Origin: Novosphingobium sp.
GTDB taxonomy: Bacteria; Pseudomonadota; Alphaproteobacteria; Sphingomonadales; Sphingomonadaceae
Length of the DNA: 64,000 nt
Direction of reading: 5' to 3'
Assembly (NCBI GenBank): GCA_016719755.1
Contig: JADJYM010000015.1
Coordinates: 62,001 to 126,000 of the forward strand
The first letter of the stretch is position 1. The number at the start of each line of letters is the position of its first letter. Shown in pieces: positions 22,518 to 24,922 of this stretch. The notes below the pieces were generated by a model. It searched no databases. It saw only the letters and a list, made by a program, of their open reading frames with translations, and had not been told where the DNA came from. Made by a program: the position numbers and the translations under genes.

Positions 22518-23177
22518 ATGTGCAACCTCTACCGCATGACCAAGGGCACGGCCGAGGTTGCGAAGATGTTCGAAGTGGTGGCGGACCTTGCCGCGAACTA
22601 CGCGCAGGAGGTCTATCCAGGCTACCCCGGGCTGGTAATTGCCGAAGGCCGCGCGCGGGCGATGCACTGGGGCTTTCCGCTGGTGCTGAAAGGCAGGCAG
22701 GGCCAGCCGCTGAAGCCCAAGCCGGTCACCAACGCGCGCGAGGACAAGCTGCTCACCCCGTTCTGGCGCGACAGCTTCGCGCAGCGCCGATGCCTTGTCC
22801 CCGTCAGCCAGTGGGCCGAGGCGGAAGGCGCGAAAGGACACATGACCCGCACCTGGTATGGCTTGCCGGGCGAGGAGGTTTTCGCGGTGGCGGGGCTGTG
22901 GCGCGCCAGCGCGGAATGGGGCGACGTCTACACCCTGGTGATGGTCGACGGCCACCCGCAGATGGCCGAGGTGCATGACCGGATGCCGCTGATCCTGTCC
23001 CGCGCGGCGCAGCGGGTCTGGCTGGATGGCAGTCCCAGCGATGCGCTGGCCCTGTGCCGGACTTGGGAAGACGCAATCGCGGTTGAGCGGACGGGCGAAC
23101 GCTGGGCAGGGGGAGGCGGCTCGGTGCGAGCGTCCAGTCACCTCCACCCAACCCTTCCCCTTCAGGAGGAGGGCTAG
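22518..23177 (+). CDS. SRAP-family DNA-protein crosslink sensor (YedK/HMCES-like)
   Basis: A 219-residue protein beginning MCNLYRMT, whose Cys2 is the residue that becomes the N-terminus and bonds covalently to abasic sites in single-stranded DNA. NAREDKL and the histidine-containing VHDRMPLIL are also conserved. Family members shield abasic sites from strand breakage. The start MCNLY replaces the commoner MCGRY/F. The last dozen residues (LHPTLPLQEEG) are encoded by a dispersed repeat (23145-23173) and are probably not part of the fold. Confidence 0.88.
   Translation: MCNLYRMTKGTAEVAKMFEVVADLAANYAQEVYPGYPGLVIAEGRARAMHWGFPLVLKGRQGQPLKPKPVTNAREDKLLTPFWRDSFAQRRCLVPVSQWAEAEGAKGHMTRTWYGLPGEEVFAVAGLWRASAEWGDVYTLVMVDGHPQMAEVHDRMPLILSRAAQRVWLDGSPSDALALCRTWEDAIAVERTGERWAGGGGSVRASSHLHPTLPLQEEG
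23145..23173. repeat. CACCCAACCCTTCCCCTTCAGG repeat inside the SRAP 3' end
   Basis: An imperfect version of the hairpin repeat seen at 20184-20205, here read through by the SRAP frame, which ends at a TAG just after it. The stem pairs CCCTTCCCC with GGAGGAGGG imperfectly. Confidence 0.5.
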
Positions 23178-24004
23178 GCAGTGCCGAACAGCTCTGCGTG
23201 GCGGGCCTCGATCGCGGGCCACAGGGTCGCCGCCTCCGGCACGTCAAGCGCGAAGCGAGCGCGCAGCAGGTCGACCAGTTCCTCGGCGCAAGTCAGTTCG
23301 CGCTCGCTCGAGCCATCCGGCCCGGTCTCGGTCAGCACCTTGCCGCGCAGCATCAGGTGGCCTTCCGCCAGCCTCTGCTGCACCACCAGGTTCTGCACGA
23401 AGATCGATTCGGGATCGCCCGCCTGCCAGGCGCAGAGCCGGGCCAGCAGCGCCTCGTCAGCGGGTTCGGCATGGAAATCGTAGGACAGCGGCATCGGCCC
23501 GCTCATAATCGCGAACTGCCAGAGCCCGTCCGCGGTGCGCTGCACCCGCCCGGCCATTGGCGCCTGCTGCCAGTCGTGTTCCTCCAGCGGGACTGGCTCC
23601 AGCTGGGTCGATCCGAAGCCGACATCGGCAAGGTAGTCGCGGCGCTCGGCACTGACTTTCAGGCACAGGTGCGAACCCATCGCCTCCTCGCCGCGAACGG
23701 CGCGCATCACCCCGCCGCTGAGGCGCGTGACCGCAAAGCCCAGCGCGGCCAGCGCCCGGGCGAACAGGCCGTTCTGTTCGTAACACCAGCCCCCGCGCCG
23801 CGCGCCGACCAGCTTGGCGAAAGCGGCGCGGCCATCGGTGGAAAGCGGGCGGCCCAGCTGGACGTCAAGGTTCTCGAACGGGATCGCCAGCACGTGGGCG
23901 CGGTGCAGCGCGGTCAGGGTCGCCAGGCTGGCATCGCGCGCACCGGCATGGCCGATGCGCTGGAAATAGGCCTCAAGCTCCGCCGGGGTCAGGGGTTCAA
24001 TCAT
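23174..24004 (-). CDS. nat: Arylamine N-acetyltransferase
   Basis: A 276-residue cytoplasmic enzyme with the Cys-His-Asp triad of the NAT family: Cys74 in GGWCYEQNGLF, His112 in GSHLCL and Asp127 in LADVGFG. IPFENLDVQLGRPL near residues 41-54 is also diagnostic. NATs transfer acetyl from acetyl-CoA to aromatic amines and hydrazines, and so can inactivate aromatic drugs. It overlaps the upstream VOC gene by eight bases, so both are one translational unit, probably driven by the SoxR-box promoter at 24427-24457. Confidence 0.93.
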   Translation of the reverse strand: MIEPLTPAELEAYFQRIGHAGARDASLATLTALHRAHVLAIPFENLDVQLGRPLSTDGRAAFAKLVGARRGGWCYEQNGLFARALAALGFAVTRLSGGVMRAVRGEEAMGSHLCLKVSAERRDYLADVGFGSTQLEPVPLEEHDWQQAPMAGRVQRTADGLWQFAIMSGPMPLSYDFHAEPADEALLARLCAWQAGDPESIFVQNLVVQQRLAEGHLMLRGKVLTETGPDGSSERELTCAEELVDLLRARFALDVPEAATLWPAIEARHAELFGTA

Positions 24005-24371
24005 AACTCGCCACCTCGAATTCGATGCCGTCCCAGTCGAAGAAGTAGAAACGGCGCCCGGGTTCGTAGTCGGCGTGGTTGAACGGCACCAACCCCGCTT
24101 CGACGACCAGCCGTTCGGCATCGACCAGATCATCCACCACCAGACCGATGTGGTTGAGCGGAACGCCCTTGGCAAACGGGAGCGGCGGCAGATCCTCGCG
24201 GGTGTAGATCGCCAGGTAGTCGCGGTCATTCCCGACATGGATGGTCGACCCGCCAAGCTGCGATGGTCCGCGCCAGCGCTCCTGCCAGCCGCAGAGCTTC
24301 TGGAGCAAGGCAGAGGTCCGCTCGGGATCGCTGACAGTGATATTGGCGTGTTCAAGGTAGCCGGTTGGCAT
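23997..24371 (-). CDS. VOC-superfamily (glyoxalase/bleomycin-resistance fold) protein
   Basis: A 124-residue protein with two beta-alpha-beta-beta-beta units. The first unit begins YLEHANITVSDPERTSALLQ (metal-ligand type His8) and the second GVPLNHIGLVVDDLVDAERL, ending with FFDWDGIEFEVASYD, where a Glu ligand is expected. Members bind or modify small reactive metabolites and antibiotics. GAGG eight bases upstream supports ATG at 24371. It is the first gene of a two-gene operon with nat, divergent from soxR. The substrate is unknown. Confidence 0.85.
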   Translation of the reverse strand: MPTGYLEHANITVSDPERTSALLQKLCGWQERWRGPSQLGGSTIHVGNDRDYLAIYTREDLPPLPFAKGVPLNHIGLVVDDLVDAERLVVEAGLVPFNHADYEPGRRFYFFDWDGIEFEVASYD

Positions 24372-24426
24372 AAGAAATTCCTCGAGTTCAGTGTTTTACC
24401 GCGCAAACGAATCAAATCGCTTTATC

Positions 24427-24457
24427 ATCATGCAACCTCAAGTTAACTTGAGATCAA
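24427..24457 (-). promoter_or_regulatory. SoxR box in a 19-bp-spacer promoter for VOC-nat
   Basis: The palindrome CCTCAAGTTAACTTGAGA (24436-24453) matches the known SoxR operator CCTCAAGTTAACTTGAGG at 17 of 18 positions. On the minus strand a -35-like TTGATC (24452-24457) and a -10-like CATGAT (24427-24432) are separated by exactly 19 bases (24433-24451). That is the over-long spacing known for SoxR-activated promoters. It points toward the VOC-nat operon. No equally good promoter toward soxR is visible. Confidence 0.85.
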
Positions 24458-24481
24458 GTATTATCGCGCAAGGATCCCGCG

Positions 24482-24922
24482 ATGGACCGCAACGACCTGT
24501 TACCGATTGGCGAACTGGCGAAGCGCACTGGGCTCGCGGTGTCGGCGATCCGTTTCTACGAGGACAAGGGCCTGATCCAGGCCTTCCGGACGATGGGCAA
24601 CCAGCGCCGCTTCCTGCGCAGCGACATCCGCCGCCTCAGTTTTATCCTGATCGCGCAGCAATTGGGGCTGGGCCTGGCCGAGATCGAAAGCGAGCTTTCG
24701 AAGCTGCCGCAGGGCCGCACGCCCACGGTGAACGACTGGCAAAAGATCAGCCGCTCGATGCGCAAGTCGATCGACGCCAAGATCCAGCTGCTCACCCGCA
24801 CCCGCAGCAAGCTGGACGAATGCATCGGCTGCGGCTGCCTCAGCCTCGAACGCTGCCGCCTCTACAACAAGGACGACCGGGCAGGCGCCGGAGGGACGGG
24901 GCCAAGGTTCGTGCTCGAATAG
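24482..24922 (+). CDS. soxR: Redox-sensitive transcriptional activator SoxR
   Basis: A 146-residue MerR-family regulator. The N-terminal winged helix is LLPIGELAKRTGLAVSAIRF, followed by YEDKGLI. A long dimerisation helix leads to the [2Fe-2S] cluster site CIGCGCLSLERC (Cys114, 117, 119, 125), spaced exactly as in E. coli SoxR. The protein is activated by redox-cycling compounds oxidising the cluster. A consensus SoxR box lies just upstream. The stop is one base from the convergent smc stop. There is no soxS, as expected outside enteric bacteria. Confidence 0.96.
   Translation: MDRNDLLPIGELAKRTGLAVSAIRFYEDKGLIQAFRTMGNQRRFLRSDIRRLSFILIAQQLGLGLAEIESELSKLPQGRTPTVNDWQKISRSMRKSIDAKIQLLTRTRSKLDECIGCGCLSLERCRLYNKDDRAGAGGTGPRFVLE

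Follow-up and report, generated by a model that had tools for sequence, protein, structure and literature searches.

SoxR probably switches on the promoter of a two-gene operon in Novosphingobium sp. that encodes a VOC-fold protein and an arylamine N-acetyltransferase (NAT). On comparative sequence evidence, we put the probability of this reading, which is the regulatory part of a SoxR-controlled detoxification module, at roughly 85%; the chemistry that we propose for VOC and NAT is held more tentatively, at a little under even odds. The locus lies in a stretch of 64,000 nucleotides that was analysed as a whole (the window). The first gene of the operon (23997-24371, minus strand) encodes the VOC-fold protein of 124 aa, which matched PF13669 and PF00903, both barely above cut-off. 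The second gene (23177-24004, minus strand) overlaps the first by 8 bp and encodes a protein of 276 aa of the arylamine N-acetyltransferase family (PF00797, 187 bits), and the Cys/His/Asp triad that is the hallmark of these enzymes was kept as Cys74/His112/Asp127 in the profile alignment. A 110-bp intergenic region separates VOC from a divergent soxR gene (24482-24922, plus strand), whose product of 146 aa scored 182 bits with TIGR01950 against a cut-off of 116.9. By alignment, Cys 114, 117, 119 and 125 of this protein form the cluster motif CX2CXCX5C, which PMC4146615 gives as the [2Fe-2S] motif definition for SoxR.

The first-pass annotation had placed a SoxR box with one mismatch in the 19 bp that separate TTGATC from CATGAT on the minus strand, and both features were borne out. 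The operator-like palindrome CCTCAAGTTAACTTGAGA (24436-24453, no strand assigned) differs at one position from the E. coli SoxR operator. It was the sole site in the window within 3 mismatches of that operator, and no such site appeared in 100 shuffles of the window; the genome (3.7 Mb, 16 contigs) held one further site within this limit, a 3-mismatch one on another contig. On the minus strand, the -35 element TTGATC (24457-24452; commonest form in relatives TTGACC) and the -10 element CATGAT (24432-24427; commonest letters in relatives CATAAT) are separated by exactly 19 bp, and the palindrome fills this spacer. The promoter pattern of the relatives, TTGANCTCAAN6TTGAGGTTGCA, matched the genome once, with 0 mismatches, and a search allowing 3 mismatches found no second site. 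A genome scan with the palindrome arms alone (CCTCAAN6TTGAGG, up to 2 mismatches) was uninformative and was set aside: it returned 63 places, and the reversed control 40, so little weight can be put on the arms by themselves. The rarity belongs to the whole promoter, not to its arms.

A promoter matrix was trained on 146 distinct promoters, all taken from VOC loci that have a divergent soxR and including the window's own, and scored this training set at 27.1 to 57.7. The window palindrome scored 54.6 on the minus strand, facing VOC, versus -0.4 facing soxR, as claimed earlier for a promoter directed toward VOC and NAT and not toward soxR; the background maximum was -6.7 over 777,056 positions in the outer parts of 10-kb family loci. 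The same orientation was apparent in a profile of 160 relatives, selected because their arms had 0-2 mismatches, whose commonest letters on the VOC strand, cTTGACCTCAAGTTAGCTTGAGGTTGCATAAT, comprise the -35 element, the 19-bp spacer and the -10 element. Beyond the arms, TTGA of the -35 element was conserved at 99-100%, TTGC at 85-94% and the next A at 100%; within the -10 element, A at position 2 was invariant (100%) and later positions reached 38-66%. On the soxR-facing side, no column exceeded 60% from -20 to -6. The -35 and -10 elements are therefore conserved on the VOC side.

We then compared 224 loci with a VOC match of at least 60 bits, four loci with a weaker VOC (L251, L272-L274) being excluded; 190 remained after removal of duplicates and of loci with less than 200 bp upstream. 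A divergent soxR lay within 1.2 kb at 179 of these 190 distinct loci. The 11 others comprised four distant VOC proteins (< 100 bits; L248, L249, L250 and L271) without a good box and seven close VOC genes, namely those of L224 (Sphingomonas mali), L229 (Sphingomonas pruni), L241, L244, L257, L268 and L269. In front of each of the seven close genes stood the promoter, located at -50 to -72 and with 0-2 mismatches in its arms. None of these promoters was in the training set, and their scores of 13.8 to 33.9 all exceeded background, five of the seven falling under the lowest training value. At L241, soxR adjoins VOC in convergent orientation and the promoter still stands before VOC. Because every close VOC gene without divergent soxR carries it, the predicted SoxR-type promoter is assigned to VOC and follows VOC, not soxR. 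Direct SoxR control of a detoxification-type gene, as first suggested for this locus, is supported by these two counts.

Arm conservation was also clear in the 300 bp before VOC at the 179 loci with divergent soxR, where 160 had 0-2 arm mismatches and 19 had 3-5. Among controls, VOC coding stretches (n = 179) never had fewer than 3 mismatches, and 14 of 1790 shuffled upstream sequences reached 1 or 2. At four of the 19 loci (L033, L069, L079 and L080), a box with 0-1 arm mismatches was found further upstream, before a second, different VOC-like gene that sits between the box and the conserved VOC. The two VOC-like genes of L069, the one locus where the second copy was scanned with Pfam, overlap by 4 bp. 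A separate observation concerns L244 (G519:C7:66210-67061), where three partial overlapping VOC matches follow VOC, as if its end had been tandemly repeated.

SoxR over the curated cut-off was found in 93 of 199 family genomes, at 95 places, all of which were compared (31 with flanks of about 1.5 kb and 64 with up to 5 kb). VOC adjoined soxR at 77 of the 95 places and NAT at four, leaving 18 without an adjacent VOC. Conversely, VOC was present in 79 of the 199 genomes, and 78 of these had SoxR over the cut-off (Fisher p 1e-38, relatedness ignored). The sole exception, G082, has next to its VOC gene a SoxR match that is short and below the cut-off; in G155, VOC and SoxR are on separate contigs. 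Within the genus, 26 of 59 genomes carried VOC. In every one of them soxR was divergent and the box had 0-4 mismatches; four of these 26 also carried NAT. SoxR was present in 38 of the 59, 12 of which had no VOC, and none of the 21 genomes without SoxR had VOC. In a scan of named genomes, divergent soxR was present at 76 of 80 stretches (the best 80 of 307 confirmed); two of the remaining four (L164 and L228) begin at a contig edge, and no soxR was found in the flanks compared for L224 and L229. The named locus of Novosphingobium kunmingense (L156) has the order soxR-VOC-NAT, and over the 469 bases compared it is identical to L130 of G246, a genome of the same genus as the window, so that Novosphingobium is the most likely genus. 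Further afield, matches to the VOC model (E ≤ 1e-12) occurred in 17 of 337 genomes of the class and 45 of 349 of the phylum; these samples share genomes with each other and with the family set, and they take in distant relatives. The VOC gene of Ruegeria sp. TM1040 has an annotated soxR in divergent orientation, and at L274 (G889, from another class of the phylum) both a perfect box and a divergent SoxR (43%) accompany a distant VOC relative. In view of L274, the pairing of SoxR with VOC may predate the Alphaproteobacteria.

The VOC protein was modelled with the paired beta-alpha-beta3 fold (best AlphaFold2 mean pLDDT 91.3; 72.9-91.3 over five models), and Foldseek returned 276 matches to this model at E ≤ 0.001. 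It shares the fold with FosX, glyoxalase I and L-DOPA dioxygenase, which are among the matches listed, but the identities were 14-26% among the 50 listed, and no NCBIfam family matched at E ≤ 0.001 in a library from which a FosA model is possibly absent. His8, Asn10, His45, His74, Tyr102, Tyr109, Glu117 and Glu119 showed no variation in any of the 189 close rows (188 distinct, as the window was entered twice). In four distant relatives, His8, Asn10, His45, His74 and Tyr109 were kept, with Glu117 in three, Glu119 in two and Tyr102 in none. His8, His74 and Glu119, which the model secondary structure places on strands 1, 5 and 8, align with His/His/Glu of FosA (profile match, chain 1npb, E 3.5e-5), and these residues are the metal ligands of FosA.

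The VOC protein had been suggested to act by binding redox-active aromatic compounds. It would then be a sequestering protein free of metal, like those of the bleomycin-resistance or TnmS type, and would protect by holding the compound; the antibiotic-binding proteins TnmS1 (5umq) and TioX (3itw) are indeed among the 50 best Foldseek matches. However, many of the named fold matches are metalloenzymes, and since the FosA-aligned His/His/Glu is kept in all close relatives aligned (Glu119 in two of the four distant ones), a metalloenzyme is likelier than a binder. We therefore consider sequestration unlikely, and the earlier proposal of binding is not supported by this conservation.

The second gene of the operon has a different distribution. 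NAT adjoined VOC in 10 of the 190 distinct loci and was absent from 180, from which it follows that the core system works without it. The idea that NAT belongs to the conserved operon was accordingly rejected. The proposal of a VOC-nat operon as the SoxR target thus holds for VOC, the conserved target, while NAT is accessory. The window NAT aligned over residues 6-260 of 276 with NAT 1 of Mesorhizobium loti (2bsz_A, E 5.3e-37), with Cys/His/Asp kept; it differs in standing behind a SoxR-type promoter and in its overlap with VOC. All 13 of the SoxR-linked NATs that were aligned retained these three residues.

We surveyed NAT at 62 places in 199 genomes (E ≤ 1e-20), scanning up to 1.3 kb upstream (less than 0.5 kb for L340). 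SoxR-type promoters were found at nine of the 62, with scores of 25.6 to 54.6, and the tenth-best score was -15.5; one of the nine fell under the lowest training score, yet above all background. Three layouts were represented: VOC-NAT at four places, a promoter followed by an FMN reductase gene (PF03358) and NAT at three (L113 in G160, L119 in G004 and L125 in G098, of one genus), and a promoter about 110-117 bp before NAT alone at two (L115 in G122 and L331 in G042, of one genus). The four VOC-NAT promoters are in the matrix training set; the remaining five, not being VOC loci, lie outside it, and their NAT genes are unlinked from both soxR and VOC. All nine promoter-bearing places were in SoxR genomes, compared with 37 of the 62 places overall (Fisher p 0.008, relatedness ignored). 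A NAT tree compared nine operon NATs with 26 others, with L331 and a copy bearing a stop left out. The NATs of L113, L115, L119 and L125 grouped in a single supported clade, separate from the NATs linked to VOC, and a single origin of the operon NATs (nine of the ten) was neither established nor rejected (p-AU 0.191).

These data bear on the idea that NAT is a chance passenger in the operon, outside the redox response. In its favour, NAT is patchy among the VOC loci, its state changed on the VOC+SoxR tree at least four times and seven times by parsimony (179 rows, 10 with NAT), and the L066 copy has an in-frame stop. Against it, SoxR-type promoters precede NAT in two more layouts unlinked from VOC, and four of the five NATs concerned, the ones in the tree, form the separate clade. 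A passenger role thus appears improbable, about as much so as VOC sequestration. Judged by its promoters, NAT is a patchy but recurrent recruit behind predicted SoxR-type promoters in three layouts, and its promoters in the two other layouts strengthen the idea of acetylation.

The palindrome might instead autoregulate soxR only, with VOC-NAT as an incidental neighbour, and the box does lie in the shared intergenic region. In addition, two loci (L032 and L049) keep soxR with a high-scoring promoter of the VOC type (43.1 and 51.9), and no VOC was found in either genome. However, the seven close VOC genes that lack a divergent soxR all have the promoter, and on these grounds a box serving soxR only was rejected; the core elements are conserved on the VOC side, and VOC is found almost only with SoxR. 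We regard soxR-only autoregulation with incidental VOC-NAT as highly improbable. Given the L032 and L049 promoters, the site may also serve soxR itself in addition to VOC. A further soxR locus, L093 (G172, the one inspected among the 12 genomes of the genus with SoxR but no VOC), has a lower-scoring box (23.1), with VOC and NAT as if lost; by eye, an ORF near its soxR shares an MCNLY start with the window ORF at 22518-23177.

A scan of 119 family genomes with the near-full promoter, allowing 1 mismatch, gave 58 places in 52 genomes, and the reversed pattern gave none in the same genomes. At 51 of the 58, the promoter adjoined soxR; two of the seven others belong to the FMN reductase-NAT operons found in G004 and G098. 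SoxR-type promoters also stood before an Fe/Mn superoxide dismutase gene in G101 (L325:2223-2846) and a MATE efflux pump gene in G099 (L326:1361-2746). Similar palindromes occurred beside non-SoxR matches of the MerR family in G074, G114 and G021, so the motif is not confined to SoxR sites and alone is no proof of SoxR action. Even so, use of the window box by another MerR-family regulator is the least probable alternative, a very slight chance: such boxes exist, and another MerR-like protein is encoded in the genome (37% over part of the SoxR sequence), but the window box adjoins a bona fide soxR, the promoter has no second genome copy within 3 mismatches, and VOC occurs with SoxR in all but one of its 79 family genomes.

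Two further observations concern these sites. At L327 and L329 (G074 and G021), a similar palindrome promoter precedes what looks by eye like a methyltransferase-like gene, next to the non-SoxR MerR match, which suggests a look-alike site of another regulator. A second SoxR type (41-49% identity) was seen at L006-L015 and L098, with boxes mostly of the form CCTCAAC-N4-GTTGAGG, and the gene next to it at L006 encodes an FMN reductase. The VOC promoters of L224 and L257, which have no soxR beside them, are of this form too. It is as if operator and SoxR type had changed together.

In E. coli, soxR and soxS form a divergent pair with a 19-bp spacer promoter. The window locus resembles this system in the divergent pair, the near-identical operator and the spacer length, but the target there is a second regulator, whereas here it is a putative detoxification enzyme operon. 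According to PMC4146615, non-enteric SoxR regulons are small and consist of transporters and enzymes that modify small molecules. The regulons of Pseudomonas aeruginosa and Streptomyces coelicolor described there are similar to the one proposed here in having a handful of direct targets and redox-active triggers; their targets are transporters, monooxygenases and other redox enzymes, and the introduction of that paper names neither VOC nor NAT. In PMC5288332, S. coelicolor SoxR is reported to respond to three activating compounds: p-benzoquinone, plumbagin and phenazine methosulfate. In the literature searched, we found no published link of SoxR to a VOC or NAT gene; a 2008 SoxR-box survey in Science may list such targets. 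The portion available of PMC4219479, on Sphingomonas wittichii, likens the glyoxalase-family protein Swit_3298 to BphC, and its sole SoxR mention is of E. coli SoxRS. The main text of PMC8007024, a Dinoroseobacter proteomics study, contains no mention of glyoxalase, VOC or bleomycin.

By analogy with SoxR elsewhere, the product of the divergent gene would occupy the palindrome that fills the 19 bp between the -35 and -10 elements of VOC, and a redox-active compound would oxidise its [2Fe-2S] cluster, so that the spacer is distorted and RNA polymerase starts the VOC-NAT mRNA. VOC, the conserved target, would most likely be a metal-dependent enzyme that modifies a redox-active aromatic compound or its reactive product. 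NAT, an add-on here and in a few further lineages, would acetylate aromatic amine or aminophenol forms and so end redox cycling.

A broader and more speculative reading, to which we give somewhat less credence than to the chemistry above, is that sphingomonad SoxR governs a 'phase I / phase II' pathway, dispersed in the genome and tuned to each lineage, in which FMN reductase, VOC and NAT act on aminoaromatic redox cyclers. The FMN reductase would reduce quinone, azo or nitro forms, VOC as a metalloenzyme would modify or open the ring, and NAT would cap the amine so that it is not re-oxidised. Arylamines or aminophenols would then be the real inducers or products, as marked by the recurrence of NAT in three layouts and in separate parts of the NAT tree.

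Non-enteric SoxR answers redox-active small molecules, and its targets have been established in few species. VOC was the commonest SoxR partner in the sphingomonad family sampled and lies beside soxR in a roseobacter too; the VOC substrate should therefore reveal the role of SoxR in these bacteria. The repeated occurrence of NAT behind predicted SoxR-type promoters would tie a classical enzyme of xenobiotic metabolism to redox sensing, a prediction that is easily testable.
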